64,000 bases of DNA from contig NZ_LWHM01000031.1 in NCBI RefSeq assembly GCF_001642735.1, forward strand, positions 124,001 to 188,000, in the 5' to 3' direction. Every line of letters starts with the position of its first letter. Position 1 is the stretch's first letter. Below the pieces are notes generated by a model. The model had not been told where the DNA came from. It saw only the letters and a list, made by a program, of their open reading frames with translations, and ran no database searches. Shown one piece after another: positions 8,982-23,580 of this stretch. This DNA is from Pseudohongiella nitratireducens (GTDB lineage Bacteria; Pseudomonadota; Gammaproteobacteria; Pseudomonadales; Pseudohongiellaceae). The translations under genes and the position numbers were made by a program.

Positions 8982-10535
8982 ATGAGTCAGACTGTGACGC
9001 AATCGTCGCCAACCATCCACCTGCTGGATACTACCCTGCGCGATGGTGAGCAAACCCAGGGCGTGTCTTTCACTCCCAAAGAGAAACTGCAGATAGCCCG
9101 TGCCTTGTTGCAATCCCTGAAAGTGGATCGCATCGAAGTGGCTTCAGCACGTGTTTCTGCGGGCGAGCAAAAGGCAGTCGCTGACATTATCGAGTGGGCG
9201 GCACAAGAAAAGCTGGCCGACCGGGTTGAAGTTCTGGGGTTTGTCGACCACCACCGCAGTGCCGACTGGATTCTGCAGGCCGGCGGCAAGGTCATTAACC
9301 TGCTGGCCAAGGGCAGCGAAAAACACTGTCGTGAACAGTTAGGCAGAACGCTGGAAGCCCATGTCGCTGACATCAAAAAGACCGTTGAGTATGCCCAGGC
9401 TAATGGCCTGTACGTCAACATGTACCTGGAAGACTGGTCAAACGGCTATAAAGACAGCCCTGAGTATGTGTACCAACTGATCGAACTGGTGTCCGACCTC
9501 GGTATTGGTCACTTCATGCTGCCTGACACGCTGGGCGTGATGACGCCTGATGAGGTCTACACTGCCCTGTCAGACATGACCAGCCGTTTCCCGGCACAGC
9601 GTTTCGACTTTCACCCGCATAATGACTACGGACTGGCCACTGCCAATGTCATGGCTGCCGTCAAAGCAGGCATCGACACCGTCCATTGCACCATCAACTG
9701 CCTGGGAGAACGGGCCGGCAATGCTTCACTGGCTGAAGTCGCCGTCGTTCTGAAGGACAAGATGAATGTCACCCTGGGTATCGATGAAACCCGCATTGCC
9801 ATGATCAGCCGCATGGTAGAAAACTTTTCCGGCAAATGGGTAGCTGCCAATACGCCGATTGTCGGCGCTGATGTCTTCACCCAGACAGCAGGTATCCATG
9901 CAGACGGTGACCTCAAAGGTGGACTTTACATCACGGCATTGGGCCCGGAGCGCTTTAACCGCAAACGCAGTTACGCGCTGGGCAAAATGAGCGGCAAGGC
10001 ATCCTTGCAGAACAACCTGGAAGAGCTGGGACTGGAGCTTTCCGAAGAAGATCAGAAGAAGGTGCTGGACAAGATTGTCAAACTGGGTGATTCCAAGGCG
10101 GTTATCACGCCCGAGGACTTACCTTTTATTATCGCTGATGTGCTGGAGAGCAGGGAGCTGCGTGATGTTGAATTGCTCAACTGCTATATCGGCAGTGGCC
10201 TTGATGTCGACAGCACCGCCAGCATTCGCCTGAAAATACAGGACGAAATCCGCACCGCTACCGGCACAGGCAATGGCGGATTTGCCGCATTCATGGATGC
10301 CATCACCCGGGTACTTGATCCTCAGCAATTTGCCATGCCGGCTTTGCTCGATTATGAAGTCCATATTCCGCGCGGCGGCCAGATCAATGCCTTGACCGAA
10401 TGTATCATCACCTGGCAGGTAGAAGAGAAAGAGCTGAAAACCCGGGGCATCGATGCCAACCAGGTCCTGGCAGGCGTCAAGGCGACTTTGCGCATGATCA
10501 ACATGCTGATTGCCTCACAGCGTCCAGAAGCCTGA
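8982..10535 (+). CDS. cimA: (R)-citramalate synthase, Leptospira type (alpha-isopropylmalate synthase family)
   Basis: A 517-residue protein from the ATG at 8982 (the frame runs back to a TTG at 8952 without added homology). It has the catalytic barrel LLDTTLRDGEQT, metal-binding FHPHNDYG and NCLGERAGN, a linker with TAGIHADGD, and a C-terminal alpha-isopropylmalate synthase regulatory domain from about residue 390. From memory, the residues that select pyruvate in Leptospira interrogans CimA are all matched: the Leu and Phe in VLGFVD, Leu in NLLAKGS, Tyr and Glu in YLEDWSNG, and Leu-Tyr in GGLYI. It would condense pyruvate with acetyl-CoA to citramalate, the entry to threonine-independent isoleucine synthesis. 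A 2-isopropylmalate synthase remains the alternative. Confidence 0.78.
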   Translation: MSQTVTQSSPTIHLLDTTLRDGEQTQGVSFTPKEKLQIARALLQSLKVDRIEVASARVSAGEQKAVADIIEWAAQEKLADRVEVLGFVDHHRSADWILQAGGKVINLLAKGSEKHCREQLGRTLEAHVADIKKTVEYAQANGLYVNMYLEDWSNGYKDSPEYVYQLIELVSDLGIGHFMLPDTLGVMTPDEVYTALSDMTSRFPAQRFDFHPHNDYGLATANVMAAVKAGIDTVHCTINCLGERAGNASLAEVAVVLKDKMNVTLGIDETRIAMISRMVENFSGKWVAANTPIVGADVFTQTAGIHADGDLKGGLYITALGPERFNRKRSYALGKMSGKASLQNNLEELGLELSEEDQKKVLDKIVKLGDSKAVITPEDLPFIIADVLESRELRDVELLNCYIGSGLDVDSTASIRLKIQDEIRTATGTGNGGFAAFMDAITRVLDPQQFAMPALLDYEVHIPRGGQINALTECIITWQVEEKELKTRGIDANQVLAGVKATLRMINMLIASQRPEA

Positions 10536-10554
10536 TCTTTCTGCGTTACCAGAG

Positions 10555-11643
10555 CTATACTCGGCGCAGCAGCAACAAACCTATCCCGGCTGAAATCACG
10601 ATGGGTATCAGCACGGCGACGGAGGGGCTGATGCCGTAAAGCACGGTGGCTGGCCCCATCGTGCGCTGAAAAATGGTGAAAGCCAGCGATATCCCGATGG
10701 CAACAAACACCCGGTACCCCATCGTTGCTTCACGCAACGGCCCGAACACAAAAGACACAGCCAGAATCACCAGGCTCAAGGTTGCCAGCGGTTGCAGCAG
10801 CTTTTTCCAGAACGCCAGGTAGTAGCTGCTGCTGTCCAGCCCTTCGCTATCGAAGTAACGTGCCAGTTGATACAGCCCACTGATCGACTGCCGGTCCGGG
10901 CGCACCAGCAACACACTCAATAGCGAGGGCGACATATCCACATCCCAGCGCATGGAAGGGTAGGAATCGGCCACCAGGTGCGTACTGCCAAACTGCGTTT
11001 CATCAATATCGCTGAGCACCCAGTACTGCTCCACTGCTCCATCAGACCGGGTACGCTCCACATAGTTACCCTGACGGGCAAACAAGGCACGATTCATTTC
11101 GCGATTTTCATTCAACTCGTAAATCGTAATACCAAACAGCTCAGTGCCGCCCGGTGCGATGGCATTGATATGAATAAACTGGTTGCCAATTTTGCGCCAG
11201 TCACCACCATCTTCGGCAATCACTTCCCCACCACTACGGATCATGGCGCGTTCACTTTGTGCCGTTTGCTGCATTGCTGGAGCAATCCACTGCCCCAGCA
11301 CCAGGCTGAATAACATGACGGCCCAGACCGGCCAGAGTACCCAGGTCACCAGCTTCCAGGTATGAATGCCTGCCGCCTGCATGATCAGCAGCTCATGACT
11401 GGAAGCAAGCACCCCCAGGCCAATCAGGGCACCGCCCAGCGCCACATAAGGCAGCAGTTCATAAATACTGGTGGGCAACGTTCTGAGCACATACAGAACA
11501 GCATCGATTGCGGTGTAAAACTGGTTGGTATCAGCCAGCTCATCGGCCATGGAAAAAACCAGGTCGATGGTAACAATCACTCCCAGCACTACCAGCATGG
11601 CAAAGAAAACGGTTCGGGCAATGTATCGGGCCAGACGTGGCAT
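10555..11643 (-). CDS. lptG: LPS export permease LptG
   Basis: A 362-residue inner-membrane protein from the ATG at 11643, which overlaps the lptF stop by one base (TGATG). It has the N-terminal helix pair, a large periplasmic beta-jellyroll domain (about residues 95-265) and three to four C-terminal helices, as in the LptF/LptG permease family. With LptF and the ATPase LptB it extracts lipopolysaccharide from the inner membrane and feeds it to LptC-LptA. The arrangement lptF then lptG, divergent from pepA, is the standard gammaproteobacterial one. Confidence 0.93.
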   Translation of the reverse strand: MPRLARYIARTVFFAMLVVLGVIVTIDLVFSMADELADTNQFYTAIDAVLYVLRTLPTSIYELLPYVALGGALIGLGVLASSHELLIMQAAGIHTWKLVTWVLWPVWAVMLFSLVLGQWIAPAMQQTAQSERAMIRSGGEVIAEDGGDWRKIGNQFIHINAIAPGGTELFGITIYELNENREMNRALFARQGNYVERTRSDGAVEQYWVLSDIDETQFGSTHLVADSYPSMRWDVDMSPSLLSVLLVRPDRQSISGLYQLARYFDSEGLDSSSYYLAFWKKLLQPLATLSLVILAVSFVFGPLREATMGYRVFVAIGISLAFTIFQRTMGPATVLYGISPSVAVLIPIVISAGIGLLLLRRV

Positions 11644-12773
11644 CAGTGTCCCCCTGCCAGTTTGGCTGAATGATTGGCTGCCCGGCGGAAGGAAGCACGC
11701 TCTTTGGCAACCAGGTACAAACCCGCAATAAAGAACACGGCATGCACCCACCACAGGCCTATCACAGCCGGGATATCACCATCTTCCAGGGCATCCCGGG
11801 ACACTTGCAGCAACATAAAGTACAGGCCATACAACAGCGCAGCAGGCACCAGGCGGGCAAATCGCCCCTGACGCGGATCCACTTTACTTAGCGGTACCCC
11901 CAGCAAAGTCAGCACCGGCAGCAGACAAATCACGGAAATACGCCACTGTAACTCGGCGGTATGAGCCAGGTCAGAGCTGCCAATCAGTTGGGTGGTAGGC
12001 ATCGCTTTTTCACGCAATATGGGTGCAATCGAGGTCGCTTCGGGCAATAAAACACCTTGCACGTCGAACTCTGTCACCGCGTAATTGCCCTGCCCGGGCT
12101 GCCCATCATAAAAATGGCCATTCTCAAGCAGCATGTAACGGCGCCCGCTTTCTTCATCCATCACTGGCCGGGCGGTATCAGCCACCATCACGCGCAAACC
12201 GCCTTCACCTTCCTGTGCGGTTGACCCGTCACGCAGCACGACAAAGGCATTATTCAATTGCCGTCCCTGCTCTGTTTCCGTGATCGCTTCTGCATAAGTG
12301 ACCCGGCTGCCTCTGGCAAATGCCTGAAACTGTCCGGCAACAATCAGATCAATCTCGGTCAACTCTTCCTGCGATTGCCGTAAGCGTTCCGTTTCCTGCA
12401 GTCCCGTAGGCGCGACATACAAACTGACAATGGCCATCACTATCGTCAGTATGGTGGCTATACCCAACGTCAAGGACAACAGCGACTTGCGGCTAAAGCC
12501 ACAGGCATGCAGAACCACCAGCTCGTTCTCTGCATACATCCGTCCATAAGCCAGCAGGATGGCGAGAAACCAGGCAAACGGGACAATGATCATCAGGAAT
12601 TCAGGCAACCGGAACAGCATGAGCATCAGCAGGATATCCGTGGTCATTTGTCCTGCGACCGCATCTGCCAGGTATTGCAGAAAACGTGAGGTAAAAGAAA
12701 CCACGAGTAATATCAAAGTCACTGCAGCAGTGACCTGCAGCAGTTGGCGGGCAAAATAGCGAAATAAAATCAC
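11643..12773 (-). CDS. lptF: LPS export permease LptF
   Basis: A 376-residue inner-membrane protein of the LptF/LptG family. The N-terminus MILFRYFARQLLQVT, the coupling-helix-like GRMYAENELVVLHACG at about residues 76-91 (which contacts LptB), the periplasmic jellyroll domain (about 125-265) and the C-terminal helices are all visible. It forms the LptB2FG exporter with the next gene, to which it is translationally coupled. The gene follows the hotdog thioesterase at 12788-13222 on the same strand after 14 bases, so three genes probably share a transcript. Confidence 0.93.
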   Translation of the reverse strand: MILFRYFARQLLQVTAAVTLILLVVSFTSRFLQYLADAVAGQMTTDILLMLMLFRLPEFLMIIVPFAWFLAILLAYGRMYAENELVVLHACGFSRKSLLSLTLGIATILTIVMAIVSLYVAPTGLQETERLRQSQEELTEIDLIVAGQFQAFARGSRVTYAEAITETEQGRQLNNAFVVLRDGSTAQEGEGGLRVMVADTARPVMDEESGRRYMLLENGHFYDGQPGQGNYAVTEFDVQGVLLPEATSIAPILREKAMPTTQLIGSSDLAHTAELQWRISVICLLPVLTLLGVPLSKVDPRQGRFARLVPAALLYGLYFMLLQVSRDALEDGDIPAVIGLWWVHAVFFIAGLYLVAKERASFRRAANHSAKLAGGH

Positions 12774-12787
12774 CTGGAATGGCTCAC

Positions 12788-13222
12788 TTATTCTTCCGAC
12801 TCGCCAACCAGGCTTTTAAACGCTGGCGGCACAGCCGCTATTTTGTGTTTATCGAAATCGAAGAATACAACGCCCTGTTTCGCGTTACACACCACCCGCT
12901 CCAGGGCCGAGTTGGTCACCTGAAAGCAGATATCGCATCCGTATTTGTTGAAACGATGAACCCCTACCTCTATGACCAGCACGTCATTGGCAAAGGACTC
13001 GGAGCGGTAATCAATACCCAGATCGGTAACAACCATACCCAGACCAAAGATATTGGCCTCTGTCAGGCCCAGACTGGCCAGGAACTGCAAACGCGCTTCG
13101 TGCAGGATATGCACCATGGCAACACTGTTGAGATGCCGTGCATAATCGAGATCACTGAACCGTACGGCATATTCCATACTGAACAGAAACTCTTCCGGCA
13201 TACTGACTTTTACGCGTGCCAT
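12788..13222 (-). CDS. Thioesterase-like hotdog protein
   Basis: A 144-residue protein from the ATG at 13222, which has a GGAGAG ribosome binding site; the upstream extension in the same frame lacks one. The hotdog signature RFSDLDYARHLNSVAMVHILHEAR at about residues 18-41 is a 4HBT variant: the Asp is present and the usual HVNN is replaced by HLNS. It probably hydrolyses an acyl-CoA or acyl-ACP thioester in the cytoplasm. It is the first gene of a likely operon with lptF and lptG and is divergent from pepA. Confidence 0.8.
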   Translation of the reverse strand: MARVKVSMPEEFLFSMEYAVRFSDLDYARHLNSVAMVHILHEARLQFLASLGLTEANIFGLGMVVTDLGIDYRSESFANDVLVIEVGVHRFNKYGCDICFQVTNSALERVVCNAKQGVVFFDFDKHKIAAVPPAFKSLVGESEE

Positions 13223-14929: not shown

Positions 14930-15796
14930 ATGACCGGTCATACGCTGCGCAGTGCCATCATCCTGCTTATTGTGGGAAACGCGCTGGCGGTCCTTTCCGA
15001 TGTCGTCATCAAGATAATGGGGGCAGGCGTCCCGGTTTTTCAGTTCATGTTCTTGCGAACGGTACTGACTGTTGGTGTGTTACTGCCTTTTTCCAGGCAT
15101 TTTAGCTGGCGTTCATTGCCACAGGGGTTTGGTATTCACCTGATACGGGCGGCTCTGAGTCTGCTCGGGGTGTTTTGTATGGTCATTGCCCTGACGACTT
15201 TACCCCTGGCAACAGCCAATGCTGTATTCTACCTGGCACCCCTGCTGATCATGCTGTTTGCCTGGCTCGGCTTCAAAGAGCGCCTGACCCTGCTCAGCAT
15301 CAGCGCAGTCGCCAGCGGTTTGATCGGTACCCTGGTGATACTGCAGCCGTTGAATTTCGGCTGGGGCGCTCTGGCGGCGCTGGGTGGCGCCCTATCAATG
15401 GCGCTTAATTCCGTGCTGGTTCGCCTGTTGCCGGATAACCAGACCTCTGTGCAGCAATTGCTGATTAATGCACTCCTGATGCTGCCCTTGTCAGCCATAT
15501 TTTTCGGAATCGAATGGCAATTGACAGCCCCCGGGTTCCGCCCCGACCTGGCCATCTTTGCCTTGACTTCAGGTGTGCTGATCATTTGCTATAACTGGAC
15601 CGTACTACTGGCATACCGCCATGTTGCCGCCAACGCAGTGACCAGCGCCGAGTACACTGGTCTGATCTGGGCGATACTGATCGGCTGGCTGGCTTTTGCT
15701 GAAACACCGGGCTTGGGTTTCCTGCTGGGCAGTGCCATGATTGTAGTACCGTTGGTCGCATTGAGCTTTCGGCAACATAAATACCAGCCATACTGA
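14930..15796 (+). CDS. DMT superfamily (EamA) transporter
   Basis: A 288-residue integral membrane protein with ten predicted helices in two EamA repeats of five. Typical features: an early conserved FMFLRTVLT segment, LATANAVFYLAPLLIMLFAW at the end of the first repeat, and a matching VTSAEYTGLIWAILIGWLAF in the second. Such proteins usually export or exchange metabolites across the inner membrane. The substrate is unknown. It begins 57 bases after pepA and 57 bases before the radical SAM gene, so it may belong to the inserted block between pepA and valS. Confidence 0.85.
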   Translation: MTGHTLRSAIILLIVGNALAVLSDVVIKIMGAGVPVFQFMFLRTVLTVGVLLPFSRHFSWRSLPQGFGIHLIRAALSLLGVFCMVIALTTLPLATANAVFYLAPLLIMLFAWLGFKERLTLLSISAVASGLIGTLVILQPLNFGWGALAALGGALSMALNSVLVRLLPDNQTSVQQLLINALLMLPLSAIFFGIEWQLTAPGFRPDLAIFALTSGVLIICYNWTVLLAYRHVAANAVTSAEYTGLIWAILIGWLAFAETPGLGFLLGSAMIVVPLVALSFRQHKYQPY

Positions 15797-15853: not shown

Positions 15854-16930
15854 ATGGAATCCATATATTACGTGCTTTGCTGGCACTGTCACCGCCGCTG
15901 CAAACACTGCTATGACGATCGCTTTCACCCTTACGTCCGGGATGAACTTGATCAGGTTGTCAGCGAAGCACGGGACAATGCCCCCAGGATTATTGCCAAC
16001 TTACCTGACAGCATGCGTTTTCTGGATGCGGAGGCATCAGGTGATGAAGCAGTATATCGCACAGGCCGGATTATTCTTTCTGGTGGTGATGTGCTGACTG
16101 ACCCTGTCCGGGAAAATGTGCTTTACCCCACGCTGGAAGCGATTCAAGATAAATATAGGGACAAAGGCGGCGTTAAAGTCATCGTTCAGACCACTGGCGA
16201 CCTGCTGACTGAAAAAATCCTTGCTGAACTGCTCGACCGGGGTGTCTGGTCAGTCTCAGCAGCCGGTATGGATGATTATCATGTTGGCATGCAGGGTGAA
16301 AAACGCCAGCCCCTGATCGAAAAGCTCCGTGATATGTTTGAATCTGCGGGCATGATCAGTATGGCGGAACATGCTCAGCGACGCCTCAGTGATGCAGATT
16401 CAACACCCGTCTATACTTTATTCGGCGCCACCGACGAAAGCTGGATTGGCAAGCTCTGGCCCAGAGGGCGTGCCTGGCGCAATGACCTGTCTAAGGCGAC
16501 TATGGCAGATAATTTCTGTAACGCCTGGTCAGGCGGTCTGGGCTTTCTGCAGCAGGGCAAAAGCGGCTCTGAGGTTTCAATCGACCCGGACGGCAATGTC
16601 TACCCCTGTTGTATCAAGACTGCCACACCACTGGGCAACCTCGCCGAAGAGCCATTGACAGAGATCCTCTACAGCGTCGCTGAGCTGCCTGCTATTCAGG
16701 CCATCAACCAGGGACAGCCACAATTGATGGGACTGGATGACGGCTGGCAGGAAAACGATTTCCTGAATGCCTGTCATACGCAAACCCCGACAGGCAATGA
16801 GTATGCAAACCTGTGCATCGGCTGCGACAAGTTTCATCAAACGGTACTTGGGCCTCAACTCAATCAACTGCAGTCACAGCGACGCGCCAAACGCCTTGGC
16901 GTCATCGCCAGCACAGGCCAGCCGGCATGA
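15854..16930 (+). CDS. Radical SAM protein with SPASM-like C-terminal cysteines
   Basis: A 358-residue protein. The 4Fe-4S radical SAM motif CxxxCxxC is C12, C16, C19 (HCHRRCKHCY), followed by a GGD segment (ILSGGDVLTDP) for SAM binding. Beyond the barrel, a SPASM/twitch-like region has IDPDGNVYPCC (C252, C253), a GNLAEEPL stretch and a terminal CIGC pair (C321, C324), consistent with an auxiliary cluster. Relatives modify peptides or small molecules by radical chemistry; the substrate is not recognisable. Its TGA overlaps the ATG of the next gene, so it is coupled to the ABC importer genes 16927-20577. This association is the main clue to function. Confidence 0.85.
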   Translation: MESIYYVLCWHCHRRCKHCYDDRFHPYVRDELDQVVSEARDNAPRIIANLPDSMRFLDAEASGDEAVYRTGRIILSGGDVLTDPVRENVLYPTLEAIQDKYRDKGGVKVIVQTTGDLLTEKILAELLDRGVWSVSAAGMDDYHVGMQGEKRQPLIEKLRDMFESAGMISMAEHAQRRLSDADSTPVYTLFGATDESWIGKLWPRGRAWRNDLSKATMADNFCNAWSGGLGFLQQGKSGSEVSIDPDGNVYPCCIKTATPLGNLAEEPLTEILYSVAELPAIQAINQGQPQLMGLDDGWQENDFLNACHTQTPTGNEYANLCIGCDKFHQTVLGPQLNQLQSQRRAKRLGVIASTGQPA

Positions 16931-18201
16931 ACCACCAGCGTTGCACACAAGCAGCCATTGCTACTGTCGTTGCAAAAGCGACGCTGGCTGCCATAGTTAC
17001 GATAGCAACGATCGCCGCGATAATTTTCTGGGCAACGATGCCGAGGGTGTTTGCAGACGAAAACGCAACCTGGCAAAACACAGTCAGTCGAGCTCAGGGA
17101 CAGTCTGTCTACTTCCACGCCTGGGGTGGTGAACAGCGCAACAATGCTTACCTGGCATGGGTCGCTGAGCAGGTTGAGGCAGAGTTCGACATTGTTCTTA
17201 ACCACGTAAAAATCCGTGATACCGCCACGTCCGTTTCTCGTGTCCTGGCAGAGAAGGAAGCCGGTAACACAGAAAACGGCGCAGTCGACCTGCTGTGGAT
17301 CAATGGCGAAAATTTTGCCAGCATGAAAACCAACAACCTGCTGTATGGCCCCTGGGCGGAGCAGTTGCCCAACTTTCGACTGGTCAATGCCGACGCAAAC
17401 CCGGAAATGCGACACGACTTTTCTGTACCGGTCGAAGGATACGAATCACCCTGGTTACGTGCACACCTGGTATTTTATTATGACAGCGACTACCTGGAGG
17501 TTCCTCCCCGCAACATGCAGGAACTGCTGCGCTGGGCCAGGGCAAACCCGGGTGAATTCACCTATCCAAAACCACCGGATTTTCTCGGCTCAACCTTTCT
17601 GAAACAGGCGCTGGCAGAACTCAGCACGCAGCCGGAGGCACTACAGCAGCCAGTTACCGAGACTGACTTTGACGCAGTCACTGCACCGCTGTGGGCATTC
17701 CTCGATCAATTGCATCCGCATTTATTGCGCCGTGGTCGAACCTTTCCTGCCAATGGTCCTGAAATGAGACGTCTGTTAGCCGATGGGGAAACCTTGCTGG
17801 CTTTCAGCTTTAACCCGAATGATCCGGTCAACCGCGTTCAGCGGGGAGAGCTGCCTGACAGCATTCGCAGCTATACAATGCGTACCGGCACCCTGGCCAA
17901 TGTCAGTTTTGTTGCCATTCCTTTCAATGCGACCAACCCGGAGGCCGCTATGGTGGTCGCCAATTTCCTGCTGTCTCCGCAAGCCCAGCTTCGCGCGCAG
18001 GACCCCGAGCATCTGGGCAGCACCAGTGTGCTTGATCCCAAGATGCTGACAGCCAGACAACGCCAGGCTTTCGCGGCAATGACACAATCACATCCGGCTG
18101 CACTGCCGGAAGGTGAAAGAGGCAACGTATTGTCGGAGCCACACCCGGACTGGATGCCTGCACTGGAGACTGCATGGATGCGGCGTTATGGTGTCAACTA
18201 A
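16927..18201 (+). CDS. ABC transporter substrate-binding protein, YnjB-like
   Basis: A 424-residue exported protein. The start chosen is the ATG of the ATGA overlap with the radical SAM gene; the longer frame from 16813 would add residues inside that gene. A long hydrophobic N-terminal segment ending VFADE acts as signal peptide. The mature part is a two-lobed periplasmic binding protein (SVYFHAWGGEQRNNAYLAW near its start, DLLWINGENF in the middle) of the YnjB type, related to thiamine/iron-type binding proteins of extracellular family 1. It would deliver a ligand to the permease at 18188. In E. coli ynjBCD is of unproven substrate. Confidence 0.82.
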   Translation: MNHQRCTQAAIATVVAKATLAAIVTIATIAAIIFWATMPRVFADENATWQNTVSRAQGQSVYFHAWGGEQRNNAYLAWVAEQVEAEFDIVLNHVKIRDTATSVSRVLAEKEAGNTENGAVDLLWINGENFASMKTNNLLYGPWAEQLPNFRLVNADANPEMRHDFSVPVEGYESPWLRAHLVFYYDSDYLEVPPRNMQELLRWARANPGEFTYPKPPDFLGSTFLKQALAELSTQPEALQQPVTETDFDAVTAPLWAFLDQLHPHLLRRGRTFPANGPEMRRLLADGETLLAFSFNPNDPVNRVQRGELPDSIRSYTMRTGTLANVSFVAIPFNATNPEAAMVVANFLLSPQAQLRAQDPEHLGSTSVLDPKMLTARQRQAFAAMTQSHPAALPEGERGNVLSEPHPDWMPALETAWMRRYGVN

Positions 18202-19945
18202 AGACCTGAAAGCTGCGCAGGCATTGGCTCCCTGGCTTTTACTCATTTTTCTGGCGATACCGGTGCTGGTCGGACTCGCCGGTGTATTACTCCCCAGCAT
18301 CGGGTACTCCTCTGCTGCTGATCAGCAGGCGTTGTCGCTGCAAGCATGGCAATCCTTATTTAGTACACCCGGCCTTTTTCACAGTGTACTGCTCAGTGTG
18401 ATACCGGGCCTCTTGTCTGCCTTGATCGCCTTTATCATTGTGTTCAGTTTTCTGGCTACCACCAGCGGTGGCAGAACATTGAACTGGATACGCCGGATGA
18501 CAGCCCCTCTGCTGGCATTTCCGCATGTCGCAGCAGCATTTGGCATCGCCTTCCTGCTGACTCCTTCGGGTTTTTTATTCCGGCTGGTTTCTCCCCTCGT
18601 CAGCGGCTGGGAGCGACCACCCGACTTGCTGATAATCAATGACCCCTGGGCACTCACCATGACGCTGGCACTGATCATGAAGGAAGTGCCGTTTCTGCTA
18701 TTAATGGCATTGGCTGCCCTGCCGGCGATCCAGGCCGACCAACGACTGGCCGTGGCGCGCTCGTTGGGATATCAACGCTCTACGGCCTGGCTGTGGACCG
18801 TTGCGCCCGCACTGTACCCGGCCTTGAGACTGCCGATTTTTGCTGTCATTGCCTACGCCTCCACTTCCGTGGAAGTTGCCCTGATACTTGGGCCATCATT
18901 GCCGGCGCCACTCAGTGTACGCACCCTGTCATGGTTTAATGACCCGGACCTGTCACTACGTAACCTGGCCTCGGCAGGCGCCTTGCTGCAAGTGGCTATC
19001 ACAGCCGCTACGATCGGCCTCTGGATACTTGGGGAGCGAATGATCAGCCGGGTTCTGGCGTATTACCAGCAATCAGGGCAGCGTGACTTTGGGGCTCGCC
19101 CACTGGCATTGCTGGGGCGTACCGGATTTATTGTCACGTTTTCCATGCTGACCCTGGCATTAGTCATACTGATCATTCAGGCTTTTGCGGGGCGCTGGCG
19201 ATTTCCCGACAGCTTTCCTGACAGTCTGACTCTTGGACACTGGCGTGCGCAGCTGCCCTTGTTATGGGATTCGCTGGCAACGACAGTGACCATCGCTGTG
19301 ACCACTGTCCTTATTGCTTTTGTTCTGATCGTGCTCACCCTGGAACAGCAGGTGAGCTCTGCCCGGGTTCATATCGGCACCGGTACTCATGGGAATGCTC
19401 TTACCAGAGTAAATCACCACCACATCATCAGCCGCTTGCTTTATCTGCCTTTGTTAACGCCGCAGATCGCTTTTCTGTTTGGTTACACCGTGTGGCTGGA
19501 GAAGATGCAGATCCCACCCGGTTTGCTGACGGTTGTCCTGGCTCACCTGGTTTTTGTTATTCCATACATGTATTTGTCACTGGCTGACGCTTACCGGGGG
19601 CTGGACAAACGCTGGCCCATGCTGGCGGCATCGTTACGCATCACACCCGCACGTTTTTTCCTGCGTATCAAATTACCGATGCTGATCGCTGCTTTGCTCA
19701 GTTCTCTGGCCATTGGTTTTGCTGTCAGCAACGGACTTTATTTACCGACACTGTTGGCCGGGGGCGGCCGTGTCAACACAATCACCACCGAAGCGATGAC
19801 CATGGCAGCAGGTGGCAGCCGCAGTACCATCGCTGTCTGGGCACTGATCCAGGCGGCGTTACCTGTGCTAGGCTTTGCCACAGCGTTATTACTCCCCAGG
19901 CTGATTTGGAAAAACCGCCGCGGCATGAAAGGGTTTATGCAATGA
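18188..19945 (+). CDS. ABC transporter permease, fused two-domain, YnjC-like
   Basis: A 585-residue inner-membrane protein, long enough for two fused permease domains, as in YnjC and ThiP/FbpB-type permeases. Two coupling (EAA-like) loops are seen, ARSLGYQRSTAWLWTVAPAL near residues 190-210 and AASLRITPARFFLRIKLPML near 480-500, each before the last helices of its domain. The start at 18188 overlaps the upstream binding-protein gene by 14 bases. A Ser/His-rich loop in the second domain (about residue 395-420) is an unusual insertion-like stretch. It would form the channel of the importer with the ATPase at 19942. Confidence 0.82.
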   Translation: MVSTKDLKAAQALAPWLLLIFLAIPVLVGLAGVLLPSIGYSSAADQQALSLQAWQSLFSTPGLFHSVLLSVIPGLLSALIAFIIVFSFLATTSGGRTLNWIRRMTAPLLAFPHVAAAFGIAFLLTPSGFLFRLVSPLVSGWERPPDLLIINDPWALTMTLALIMKEVPFLLLMALAALPAIQADQRLAVARSLGYQRSTAWLWTVAPALYPALRLPIFAVIAYASTSVEVALILGPSLPAPLSVRTLSWFNDPDLSLRNLASAGALLQVAITAATIGLWILGERMISRVLAYYQQSGQRDFGARPLALLGRTGFIVTFSMLTLALVILIIQAFAGRWRFPDSFPDSLTLGHWRAQLPLLWDSLATTVTIAVTTVLIAFVLIVLTLEQQVSSARVHIGTGTHGNALTRVNHHHIISRLLYLPLLTPQIAFLFGYTVWLEKMQIPPGLLTVVLAHLVFVIPYMYLSLADAYRGLDKRWPMLAASLRITPARFFLRIKLPMLIAALLSSLAIGFAVSNGLYLPTLLAGGGRVNTITTEAMTMAAGGSRSTIAVWALIQAALPVLGFATALLLPRLIWKNRRGMKGFMQ

Positions 19946-20577
19946 CCATGCAGTCTCTACAGCTAAAGCAGCTGACGCTGTATCTGCAACAGAAATGTCT
20001 GCTGAAACTGGATACGCAGATTGCCCCGGGGGAGATACTGACCGTGATGGGGCCATCCGGCTCCGGCAAATCCAGTCTGCTCGCTGCCATTGCCGGCTTT
20101 CTCACGCCCGAATTTAAACTCGAGGGCCAGGTCCATCTGGGCAACCGGCGCATTGACCAGCTCCCTCCTGAGCAGCGCGGCGCCGGCCTGCTTTTTCAGG
20201 ATCCCCTGCTCTTCCCCCATCTGTCTATTGCCCAGAACCTGGTATTTGCCATGCCTGCCAGCACCAGGGATAAACAGGAAAAAGTCAGCGCCGCATTAAT
20301 GCAGCTGGGTTTGGCAGGCTATGAGCAACGCGACCCGGAAACCTTATCAGGTGGCCAGAAAACGCGTGTTGCACTGCAGCGGCTGTTATTTTCGCAACCG
20401 CAAGCCGTGTTGCTGGACGAACCTTTCAGCAGCCTGGATACTGACTTGCGACAAGAAATCCGCAAGCTGGTTTTTGATGCGCTGACAAAAGCCGGGTTGC
20501 CGGCCGTGCTGGTCACCCATGACCAGGCTGATGCGGATGCAGCTGACGGCAGAATCATTAATCTCCAGGACAGCTGA
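19942..20577 (+). CDS. ABC transporter ATP-binding protein, YnjD-like
   Basis: A 211-residue ATPase starting at the ATG that overlaps the permease stop (ATGA). Walker A is GPSGSGKSS, the Q-loop lies in LLFQDPLLFPH, the ABC signature is LSGGQKTR, Walker B is AVLLDEPFSSLD, and the switch His is in LVTHDQ. It energises the importer. With its three upstream partners it forms a four-gene unit in which every junction overlaps. No other gene follows on the strand before valS, 192 bases downstream. Confidence 0.9.
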   Translation: MTMQSLQLKQLTLYLQQKCLLKLDTQIAPGEILTVMGPSGSGKSSLLAAIAGFLTPEFKLEGQVHLGNRRIDQLPPEQRGAGLLFQDPLLFPHLSIAQNLVFAMPASTRDKQEKVSAALMQLGLAGYEQRDPETLSGGQKTRVALQRLLFSQPQAVLLDEPFSSLDTDLRQEIRKLVFDALTKAGLPAVLVTHDQADADAADGRIINLQDS

Positions 20578-20769: not shown

Positions 20770-23580
20770 ATGGATAAGACGTATCAACCCCAGCAAATTG
20801 AACAACAATGGTATGAGACCTGGGAAAAAGGTGGCTACTTCACCCCCAGCGGCCAGGGTGAATCCTACAGCATCGTGATTCCCCCACCCAATGTCACCGG
20901 TCGTTTGCACATGGGGCATGGTTTTCAGAATGCCATCATGGACGCCCTGATCCGCTACCAGCGCATGATGGGCAAGAACACCCTCTGGCAGGTCGGTACT
21001 GACCATGCCGGCATTGCCACGCAAATGGTGGTGGAGCGGCGCCTGGAAAAAGACGGCGTCAAGCGCACCGATCTGGGCCGAGAAACGTTCAACGACGAAG
21101 TCTGGAAGTGGAAAGAGCAGTCCGGCGGTATCATTACTCAGCAAATCCGTCGCCTGGGTGGCTCCATTGACTGGTCACGTGAGCGCTTCACCATGGACGA
21201 GGGTCTGTCTGCAGCCGTGGAAGAAGTGTTTGTTCGCCTGTTTGACGAAGGCCTGATTTATCGCGGCAACCGCCTGGTGAACTGGGACCCGAAACTGCAC
21301 ACCGCCGTTTCCGACCTGGAAGTCATCAACGAAGAAGAAGACGGGCATTTCTGGTACTTCAAATACCCACTGGCTGATGGTGCCACCACTGACGATGGCA
21401 AAGACTATATTGAAATAGCCACCACTCGTCCGGAAACCCTGCTGGGTGACACAGCGGTTGCTGTCAGCCCCGAAGATCCCCGTTTCAAGTCACTGATCGG
21501 CAAGTTTGTTGACCTGCCCTTGTGTGACCGACGTATCCCAATTGTAGGTGATGATTACGTCGACCCGGAGTTTGGTACCGGCTGTGTAAAAATCACCCCG
21601 GCCCACGACTTCAACGATTATGAAGTTGGCAAGCGCCATGATCTGCCCATGATCAACATCTTCACCATTGATGCGGCTATCAATGACAACGCCCCGGAGG
21701 CCTACCGCGACCTGGACCGTTTTGATGCCCGTAAAAAACTGGTCGCTGATATGGAAGCCGCTGGCCTGCTGGTCAAAGTCGAGCCTCACAAGCTGAAAGT
21801 GCCTCGCGGTGATCGCAGTGGCGTGGTGATTGAGCCTTACCTGACCAATCAGTGGTACGTTGCTGTTCAGGAACTGGCCAAACCTGCCATCAAAGCCGTG
21901 GAAGACGGTGATATCGAGTTTGTTCCCAAAAACTGGGAGAACACCTATTTCTCATGGATGCGTGACCTGCAGGACTGGTGTATTTCCCGGCAGTTGTGGT
22001 GGGGGCACCGTATTCCGGCCTGGTATGACGCAGACGGCAATATCTATGTCGGGCGCAGCGAGGCGGAAGTACGCAGCAAATACAAGCTGGCAGATGACCT
22101 GGCACTGGAACAGGACGAAGACGTTCTGGACACCTGGTTCTCGTCAGCGTTGTGGACCTTTTCGACGCTGGGCTGGCCAGATGATCCGGAAACTCTGAAA
22201 ACATTCCATTCCACGGACGTGCTGGTGACTGGCTTCGACATCATTTTCTTCTGGGTGGCCCGGATGATCATGATGACCCTGAAGTTTACCGGCGAGATCC
22301 CTTTCAAAAAGGTGTACATCCACGGCCTGATTCGTGATGGACAAGGTCAGAAGATGTCCAAGTCCAAAGGTAATGTACTCGACCCGATCGACCTGATCGA
22401 CGGTATCAGCCTGGACGACCTGATCGCGAAACGCACCGAAGGTCTGATGCAGCCACAACTGCAGAAGAAAATCGAAAAAGCGACTCGCGATGAATTCCCG
22501 GACGGGATTGTGGGATATGGCACCGATGCACTGCGCTATACCTATTATTCACTGGCGTCGACAGGGCGCGACATCAAATTTGACGTCGGCCGCATGGAAG
22601 GTTTCCGTAACTTCTGCAACAAGATCTGGAATGCCTCGCGCTATGTGATCATGAATACCGAAGAAAAAGGCATTCAGTTCACACCGCAAGACGTTCAGTC
22701 ACTACAGTCAGACCCGAACCTCAGCCTGGCGGATCGCTGGATCCTGTCACGCTTGCAACAGACTGTGACCCAGGCTCATGAGCACATGGCCAGCTACCGA
22801 TTTGATTTGATGTCACAGGCGATCTACGACTTCTTCTGGAACGAGTACTGCGACTGGTACGTTGAACTGTCCAAGCCGGTTCTCTGGGATGCTGACAACC
22901 AGCCAGAGCGCGCTCGTGCCGCTCGCTTAACGCTGCTGACGGTTCTGGAAAGCAGCCTGCGCATGGTGCACCCGCTGATGCCGTTCATCACCGAAGAGAT
23001 CTGGCAGAAGATCGCCACGCTGACCGGACAGCGCCAGGATGGCGACAGCATCATGCTGCAGCCCTACCCCATGGCCAACGAGGCATTAATCAACGAAAGT
23101 GCTGAAGCGGATATCGAATGGGTCAAAGGCGTCATCGTTGGTATTCGTAACATCCGTGGTGAAATGAACATTCCACCCGGCAAGGCTTTTGCTGCCCTGT
23201 TACGCAACACCAGTGAAGCGGATCGTCGCCGACTGGCAGAAAACCAGGCAACCTTGTTGAAACTGGCCAAGCTCACCGAGCTACGGGCTGTTGAAGACGG
23301 AGAAACAGTGCCGGCAAGCGCCACCCAGCTTCACCAGGACATGGAAATTCTGGTACCACTGGCTGACCTGATTGATAAAGACGAGGAAATTGCGCGTCTG
23401 AACAAGGAAATTGCCAAGCTGGAAAAAACCATGCAGGGTATCAGCAGCAAGCTCGGCAATGAAAAATTTGTTGCCAAAGCGCCGGCCGAACTGGTTGAAA
23501 AAGAAAGAGAAAGAAAAGAATCTACTGAACGTGCTATGGCAGCGTTACAAGACAAACTTGCAGAGATCAAGGCACTATAA
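20770..23580 (+). CDS. valS: Valyl-tRNA synthetase
   Basis: A 936-residue class I synthetase of normal length. It has the HIGH-type motif HMGH in [12 protein letters not shown] near residue 46, the editing (CP1) domain about residues 200-340, KMSKS at residues 528-532, the anticodon-binding domain, and the C-terminal coiled coil of ValRS (from about residue 870, rich in Lys/Glu heptads). It charges tRNA-Val and hydrolyses mischarged Thr-tRNA. It is normally preceded by holC and pepA; here six kilobases of other genes separate pepA from it. An intrinsic terminator follows. Confidence 0.97.

Follow-up and report, generated by a model that had tools for sequence, protein, structure and literature searches.

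An unclassified radical SAM enzyme of the Twitch type shares a conserved operon with a YnjBCD importer in Pseudohongiella nitratireducens and other bacteria

A four-gene operon in a window of 64,000 nucleotides (nt) from Pseudohongiella nitratireducens (assembly GCF_001642735.1, contig NZ_LWHM01000031.1, positions 124,001 to 188,000; the window is the whole stretch of DNA that was analysed) couples an unclassified radical S-adenosylmethionine (radical SAM) enzyme of the Twitch type to an ATP-binding cassette (ABC) importer of the YnjBCD type, and this operon is conserved in other bacteria. YnjBCD has several partners that recur, among them this radical SAM enzyme, the most frequent other partner in our survey being YnjF, a cytidine diphosphate (CDP)-alcohol phosphatidyltransferase. 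A relationship that is new here is that YnjBCD systems without the radical SAM enzyme almost always co-occur with YnjF, and genomes holding both the enzyme and YnjBCD are mostly without it. We consider it very probable that the enzyme and the importer form a functional unit. YnjBCD is present even in E. coli K-12, and the linkage and the co-occurrence described here narrow the search for its cargo in a manner that is testable in a laboratory strain. In a Marinobacter pangenome study, YnjBCD is listed as "uncharacterized" and ranks with the functions most enriched in one clade (PMC9207381). An initial annotation of this DNA knew of no described system of such composition, and this agrees with the open-licence PubMed Central (PMC) literature, in which no paper was found that combined radical SAM, ABC transporter and ynjB, or ynjF with CDP-alcohol phosphatidyltransferase. 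The interpretation given in that annotation is, as a whole, partly supported by the results below.

All four open reading frames (ORFs) lie on the + strand, and the tight junctions reported earlier were found as described. The radical SAM enzyme (15854..16930, 358 amino acids) carries the motif CHRRCKHC, which contains C12, C16, and C19. Its gene shares a 4-base ATGA stop/start overlap (16927..16930) with that of the periplasmic binding protein (16927..18201, ATG at 16927, mature part taken from 17056), which matched the NCBIfam model NF008633/PRK11622 of the YnjB group with 519.8 bits (cut-off 203). A 14-base overlap (18188..18201) joins the latter to the YnjC-like permease, a single long ORF (18188..19945, ATG at 18188) whose tblastn matches adjoin YnjB in the survey loci, and a second ATGA overlap (19942..19945) joins the permease to the YnjD-like ATPase (19942..20577, ATG at 19942; PF00005, 104.5 bits), with the Walker A sequence GPSGSGKS and an LSGGQ motif. 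The order of binding protein, permease, and ATPase is that of E. coli, as is the NF008633 group of the binding protein. The annotated order in E. coli MG1655 is ydjX-ydjY-ydjZ-ynjA-ynjB-ynjC-ynjD-ynjE, followed by ynjF on the opposite strand; this region differs in that it has no radical SAM gene, whereas the window operon is without ydjXYZ, ynjA, ynjE, and ynjF. A scan of the window for promoters and terminators gave promoter-like sites only at the level of shuffled sequence.

The conservation of this arrangement was examined in 59 loci from one scan of GTDB genome contigs, the window and stretches of further genomes, a radical SAM gene being counted as linked if a YnjB-type gene was present on the same strand within 8 kb. 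The 80 stretches bearing the gene comprised 53 linked and 21 unlinked cases, and six that end too soon to decide. Four duplicates (L063, L064, L065, and L106) were removed from the linked set, and L098, which is a relative with 31% identity but no member of the family, was taken out of the unlinked set, leaving 49 linked, 20 unlinked, and six undecidable stretches. According to record title or sample, the linked cases belong to the Gamma-, Alpha-, and Betaproteobacteria, together with L096, a genome from the Acidobacteriota sample whose gene order is changed to radical SAM enzyme-ATPase-binding protein-permease. The unlinked cases are Kordiimonas, Parvibaculum, further genomes of the sample from the class of Bosea, and Acidobacteria. 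The initial annotation had regarded the association as chance if homologs in related genomes showed no linkage, and the linkage found here speaks against this. The nearest possible start of the binding protein overlaps the radical SAM stop by 1–20 nt in 18 of the 49 linked stretches and lies 0–30 nt past it in another 15. The enzyme itself is present in 5/293 genomes of the window's order, 13/289 of the class of Bosea, and 6/297 of the Acidobacteriota sample (one of the six being a distant relative). Several copies (L091/L111, L076/L095, L078+L080/L097, and L058) contain an in-frame stop or frame break, due to either decay or assembly error. Searches for PHROGs matches and for plasmid-borne copies yielded none.

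In a tree of 86 binding proteins (excluding L062, L063, L064, L065, L106, L058, L008, L022, and L060, which are duplicates or partial, and L174, with a stop inside the matched stretch), the presence of a linked radical SAM gene requires six changes of label, at least four of which are forced by the starred branches. The mean in shuffles was 29.2 and none of 500 shuffles was as low as the observed value. As the linked label is present on several branches, the association has either persisted or arisen anew several times. The distances of the radical SAM enzymes and binding proteins are correlated (rho 0.77, 43 loci; L111, L058, L008, and L022 were left out, as were L062 and L107, in which one of the four genes is lacking), and the enzyme is the most conserved part of the system, with a mean identity of 65% vs. 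55, 53, and 60% for the other three parts. Two metagenome-assembled genomes titled "Klebsiella pneumoniae" (L005) and "Rhodoferax sp." (L006) look misassigned, since in the tree their binding proteins fall next to those of uncultured relatives within the clade of the window.

The second partner of the importer emerged from a survey based upon NF008633, in which YnjB was detected in 40/349 Pseudomonadota genomes, E. coli being the one control genome that matched. Exclusive of the genome of the window, the radical SAM gene was found at none of the 39 other YnjB loci within the fetched 16–17 kb. A CDP-alcohol phosphatidyltransferase related to E. coli YnjF (PF01066 was confirmed in the two loci tested) is present near YnjBCD in 28 of these 39 loci, compared with only 4/49 of the radical SAM-linked stretches, or 3/43 of those with enough flanking sequence (four of the 49 have no visible ATPase and two more have <700 nt beyond it). 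The same pattern is seen at the genome level. Using a profile built from nine YnjF-like proteins, matches were detected in 34/299 genomes of the phylum sample, including 28/30 genomes with YnjB and without the radical SAM enzyme vs. 6/268 without YnjB (Fisher p 3e-31, a value which, like the other counts and p-values for co-occurrence, ignores kinship). From all genomes bearing the radical SAM enzyme, 34 were chosen and tested for TIGR04283, ArsS, and YnjF. YnjF matches were found in four of these 34 and in 4/22 unique genomes with linked radical SAM/YnjBCD operons (Fisher p 2.6e-8 vs. 28/30), one match being a fragment of 61 positions; most of the 22 genomes are drafts or metagenome-assembled, and some absences of YnjF may be gaps. 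Two genomes were removed as apparent second copies based upon identical TIGR04283 coordinates (G1219 = G081 and G1224 = G283), and it was assumed that the 299-genome sample is nested in the 349-genome survey and that G1149 belongs to the former. At a threshold of E 1e-20, YnjF was absent from the window's own genome and from four other members tested of its family, i.e., 0/5 near-complete genomes. The radical SAM enzyme and YnjF are described here as ALTERNATIVES: genomes with the radical SAM/YnjBCD operon are mostly without YnjF, and the pattern spans several branches of the tree. A 62-residue remnant of YnjF is located directly after the ATPase of the radical SAM/YnjBCD operon in L003 (at about 12688–12873), and relatives of L003 keep ynjF at this position, whole in L052 and cut by the contig end in L006.

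Other proteins also recur with YnjBCD. At the survey loci, these include DUF547 proteins and VTT proteins, the latter either as separate proteins or in fusion with a MerA-like flavoprotein. Some proteins of the VTT/DedA type translocate lipids. The presence of DedA/VTT proteins and of a CDP-alcohol phosphatidyltransferase is a further feature that these loci share with the E. coli region, where YdjX and YdjZ are members of the VTT/DedA family (PMC7818093). In Bosea vaviloviae (L033), a single run of genes encodes a VTT-flavoprotein, CDP-alcohol transferase, radical SAM enzyme, binding protein, TIGR04283-like and TIGR04282-like proteins, permease, and ATPase. Three loci from order-mates that have no radical SAM gene (L145, L146, and L150) have the gene of an APH-type kinase ahead of that for the binding protein, and TIGR04283/TIGR04282-like genes follow the ATPase (identified by tblastn, and in L145 also by family models). 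A TIGR03169 (N-terminal-to-SelD) oxidoreductase and a TonB-dependent receptor were also observed near YnjBCD operons (L173, 4199–5296; L151, 1654–4155).

In an alignment of 27 rows, the three cysteines of the CX3CX2C cluster motif of the radical SAM enzyme are invariant, as are C222, C252, C253, C321, and C324. Pfam detected a SPASM domain (30 bits, cut-off 21.5), and Radical_SAM PF04055 remained under its cut-off (24.4 of 29.5). The C-terminal cysteines, described as SPASM-like in the initial annotation, fit the one-cluster Twitch type and not the complete SPASM motif. SPASM domains are characterized by seven cysteines in the arrangement CX9-15GX4C-gap-CX2CX5CX3C-gap-C (PMC6231123), of which only C222, GX4C252, and C321X2C324 are filled; no CX5CX3C follows C324, and C222 and G247 are 24 residues apart, a greater distance than that given by the motif. 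As only the first four SPASM positions are filled, the enzyme is therefore placed, by its cysteine pattern, in the truncated-SPASM or Twitch type with one expected auxiliary cluster, rather than among the full SPASM proteins. The possibility that it belongs to a known family with an unrelated role, also raised earlier, found no support, as all NCBIfam models were under cut-off for the window enzyme and four relatives; for the distant relative L098 none was above cut-off among 25 of the 43 matches listed.

No relatives of the enzyme with solved structures were found by sequence. Its AlphaFold model (mean pLDDT, a per-residue confidence score, 89.8) is predicted to have the partial TIM-barrel radical SAM fold and superposes best on the peptide epimerase EpeE/YydG (Z 16.3 over 251 residues, 3.5 A; 12–14% identity), which was also the first match in Foldseek (E 7.3e-8), followed by BtrN, a 2-deoxy-scyllo-inosamine dehydrogenase (Z 15.1, 219 residues, 3.3 A). 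With BtrN, the enzyme shares a radical SAM barrel plus one auxiliary-cluster domain, for which it has four candidate cluster cysteines. It differs in the absence of any sequence-level match, in its length (358 amino acids vs. 246 solved residues) and in the additional invariant C253. This extra cysteine lies beside a cluster-type cysteine, and the C252-C253 pair could supply a hydrogen-donor cysteine next to a cluster ligand. In published work, the Twitch enzyme BtrN catalyzes the oxidation of an aminocyclitol (PMC9012708), and a cysteine acts as the hydrogen donor in both EpeE, whose activity is leader-independent (PMC8326336), and NeoN (PMC10991966).

Since YnjBCD is closely co-inherited with a CDP-alcohol transferase, its cargo may be an alcohol resembling a lipid headgroup. 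Furthermore, YnjF is mostly missing where the radical SAM enzyme is present, and the latter is a Twitch enzyme whose nearest folds oxidise cyclitols or epimerise; it is therefore proposed that the imported polyol is oxidised or epimerised by a radical reaction. According to this proposal, YnjB would deliver a small polyhydroxylated compound, i.e., a molecule similar to a cyclitol, a sugar phosphate or a glycosyl-glycerol. In the majority of bacteria with YnjBCD, YnjF would attach this compound, or a phosphorylated form of it, to a lipid supplied by a CDP-activated donor. The proposed alternative follows general radical SAM chemistry, in which a 5'-deoxyadenosyl radical abstracts hydrogen. In the lineage of the window, the enzyme would remove a hydrogen atom from a carbinol carbon in this manner, after which either an electron would pass to the single auxiliary cluster, as in the alcohol oxidation by BtrN, or hydrogen would be taken back from a conserved cysteine such as C253, as in the epimerisations by EpeE and NeoN. 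In other lineages, nearby kinases and TIGR04282/TIGR04283 transferases could activate or glycosylate the product. The presence of such genes fits a headgroup-like cargo: an APH-type kinase is found between the radical SAM enzyme and binding protein in L029, from a Marinobacter strain, and in L107, an FGGY kinase follows the enzyme in L030, and a two-domain PF07005/PF17042 kinase, of a kind that acts on sugar acids, in L045. If the enzyme were to take the place of YnjF on the imported molecule, a polyol or sugar resembling a lipid headgroup would become the first substrate class of the orphan YnjBCD, and a new family of radical SAM enzymes that act on imported nutrients would be defined. The enzyme is a member of a well-conserved group with no NCBIfam model above cut-off, and its chemistry would be either novel or new to the uptake of nutrients. 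We hold the assignment of substrate class and reaction type as tentative only, and the whole statement, in which coupling, cargo, and chemistry are combined, as having appreciably less than an even chance. That the enzyme is a functional stand-in for YnjF, so that headgroup transfer and radical chemistry alternate on the same YnjBCD-imported molecule, is doubtful.

A number of observations weigh against this proposal, in addition to the effects of kinship and of incomplete genomes noted above. The radical SAM enzyme and YnjF are not strictly exclusive, as they occur together at the same locus in L006, L052, and L033, and also in the genome of L032. Likeness of radical SAM folds does not determine the reaction that is catalyzed, as noted in PMC6231123. 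The model of the binding protein (pLDDT 91.7) has a periplasmic binding-protein fold, for which the highest Z-scores (28.4 and below) were obtained with binders of maltose/trehalose and other sugars, and those just behind with SmoF-sulfoquinovosyl lipid (26.9), UgpB-glycerophosphocholine (26.8), and 4r6y, annotated for 2-aminoethylphosphonate (tied at 26.9), in a ranking where larger target structures gain Z through length. These Z-scores speak for a headgroup-like cargo. In Foldseek, however, the top binding proteins were 4r6y and binders of metal-citrate, polyamines, and ferric iron. Solved relatives were found only as distant ones through a profile, none by sequence alone, and the profile search preferred polyamine binders (3ttk, E 0.0019; PotD, 0.005). 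Because the Z and Foldseek rankings point to different ligands, the modeled fold does not decide the ligand class. Enzyme and importer also occur apart: among 12 genomes tested, ten with an unlinked radical SAM gene and two with the gene at a contig end and no YnjBCD in view, YnjB was present elsewhere in three, and nine had no YnjB match at E 1e-5, although absence from such drafts is not certain. TIGR04283 was considered as a marker of the system, being found in 30/34 genomes with the radical SAM enzyme (29 over cut-off) vs. 153/299 of the phylum sample, but it is weakened in this role by the 128/299 background genomes that hold it over cut-off; with second copies and the window's own genome removed, the counts over cut-off are 27/32 vs. 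127/298 (Fisher p 7e-6, ignoring kinship), which speaks in favor of the proposal. Finally, genes for MadL (PF03817), MadM (PF03818), and an AMP-binding enzyme precede the radical SAM gene on the same strand in 17/49 linked loci, and these malonate genes are not explained by a headgroup-like cargo. For this last reason, our estimates for the cargo and chemistry, for the whole statement and for the replacement of YnjF were each lowered slightly.

A different cargo would be a nitrogenous or cofactor-type compound, such as a polyamine, 2-aminoethylphosphonate or a thiamine precursor, which the enzyme transforms, e.g., by dehydrogenation or by cleavage of a C-C or C-N bond. The polyamine-binder and Foldseek matches of the binding protein are consistent with this possibility, as is the placement of YnjB under polyamine binding proteins in the table of a review (PMC9397018). 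The ATPase and permease are likewise nearest to the PhnT2, ThiQ, and PhnV models, although all far under cut-off, and the C-terminal half of the permease, which has no Pfam match, weakly resembles the PhnV/ModB permease models, also under cut-off. However, all of these matches are to distant members of a single large class of importers, no recurring polyamine, phosphonate or thiamine gene was recognised among the neighbours, whose clusters were partly annotated, and the association of YnjBCD with YnjF would be left unexplained. A cargo of the nitrogenous or cofactor type appears unlikely.

The initial annotation gave a metallophore and a modified peptide as examples of the imported molecule. 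In a reading of this kind, the enzyme would mature a peptide or make a metallophore, which would be secreted and then re-imported by YnjBCD. This view is favored by the fold similarity to EpeE, the top-ranking match, which epimerises peptides, and by a weak NCBIfam match to DynA, confined to a short SPASM stretch. A gene for an EamA-type transporter, which could serve in export, is located at 14930–15796, 57 bases upstream of the radical SAM gene of the window on the same strand, and a gene of the same type is found upstream in L007; seven further loci have a different, more distant member of the family. In the genus of the window, a leucyl-aminopeptidase-like gene (family name given by eye) is also present upstream. 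In contrast, no RRE/PqqD domain was matched by Pfam at E 0.001 and the protein begins directly at the radical SAM barrel, although not all enzymes that modify ribosomally synthesized peptides have such a recognition element. In addition, the overlapping genes leave no room for a precursor and, in contrast to EpeE, no peptide substrate gene was seen in the operon, no search for a precursor elsewhere having been made. The suggestion of a modified peptide or metallophore has thus found little support and is quite unlikely to be correct.

It could also be argued that the genes are joined mainly by shared inheritance, as a mobile or "selfish" operon, and that the enzyme and importer have roles in separate pathways. 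Each gene can occur without its partner, their coupling not being obligate, as is evident from the 39 YnjB loci and the nine genomes described above, and so the enzyme need not always act on an imported molecule; the earlier suggestion that it does so is favored by the conserved linkage and limited by this finding. The neighbours of the unlinked copies are varied (acetate kinase, FGGY kinase, a two-domain sugar-acid-type kinase, an Ldh2-type dehydrogenase, an RND (resistance-nodulation-division) pump, and a Rieske protein), and were rejected as functional clues for being too inconsistent, only some of the kinases being kept as weak support. Nevertheless, the linkage survives at a mean binding-protein identity of about 55%, on several branches of the tree, and it is kept where the gene order is altered (L096) or other genes have been inserted (L029, L107, and L111). 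An association by shared inheritance alone is, in our view, improbable. In one acidobacterial locus (L055, 4368–9050), the radical SAM gene comes right after another ABC importer, consisting of an ATPase and two separate permeases (by Pfam) and a binding protein (by eye), and nearby genes include one for an aminotransferase-V, identified by Pfam, and ORFs read by eye as CobW-like, GcvH-like, and lipoate-ligase-like; Dpp-like genes were similarly named by eye in L103.

Assignment of the system to an organoarsenical (arsenosugar) pathway is suggested by the NCBIfam name "arsenosugar biosynthesis glycosyltransferase" of both TIGR04282 and TIGR04283, which occur in or beside the operon in Alphaproteobacteria. 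TIGR04283 is inside the operon in L031, L032, and L033 and beside it in L107 and L111. In L094, from the Acidobacteriota sample, a TIGR04282-like ORF (9999–10742; 82.5 bits, cut-off 134) overlaps the radical SAM stop by four bases, with no YnjB in the examined stretch. The P. nitratireducens genome encodes both families in one ORF of 446 codons on another contig (C28; L216, 7590–8930, − strand), whereas in the other radical SAM genomes examined they are mostly adjacent matches distant from the radical SAM gene. We take it from the family names that clusters of ArsS (TIGR04167) hold these transferases, and their companionship with a radical SAM gene would be the feature shared with our system. 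However, ArsS is another radical SAM family; an ArsS identity for the window enzyme was rejected as there was no family match and the hhalign probability against the ArsS of its own genome was 10%. As ArsS was detected in only 3/34 radical SAM genomes and not in the other 31, and as family names are labels and not tests, the name "arsenosugar biosynthesis" should not be carried over, and such a role is decidedly improbable. The ArsS of the window's own genome stands alone on contig C14 (L235, 7815–8765), no other arsenosugar gene having been recognised beside it by eye.

It is highly improbable that malonate-type acids are consumed or formed by the pathway, with the radical SAM enzyme and others degrading the imported compound to malonate, which would be activated to malonyl-CoA, because the 17 loci with malonate genes, and an HpcH/HpaI-type aldolase gene found nearby in eight loci, are countered by the confinement of the malonate genes to one gammaproteobacterial clade of binding proteins plus two loci not in the tree, where they may represent inherited gene order, by their absence from the window and from the Alphaproteobacteria and Acidobacteria examined, as far as the neighbour clusters show, and by the consideration that MadLM would import malonate itself and make YnjBCD redundant for it. 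The families were tested on L011 (4639–7840) and assigned to the other loci by clustering. The AMP-binding enzymes are nearest to acyl-CoA/malonyl-CoA synthase models, under their cut-offs (L018, 360 bits, cut-off 558); in L018 (5274–8003) this ORF ends 2 nt before the start of the radical SAM gene, and a lipocalin-like ORF often lies between the malonate genes and the latter.

Another gammaproteobacterial subset has ORFs for a glycosyltransferase, an Nramp-like protein, and a ferritin-like protein, together with an EamA-type transporter, which is located just upstream of the radical SAM gene. The neighbour clusters of the gammaproteobacterial loci were annotated in part, and of both this set and the malonate set, the window has only an EamA gene. 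Downstream of the ATPase of the window, the next gene (20770–23580) was read by eye as a valyl-tRNA synthetase.

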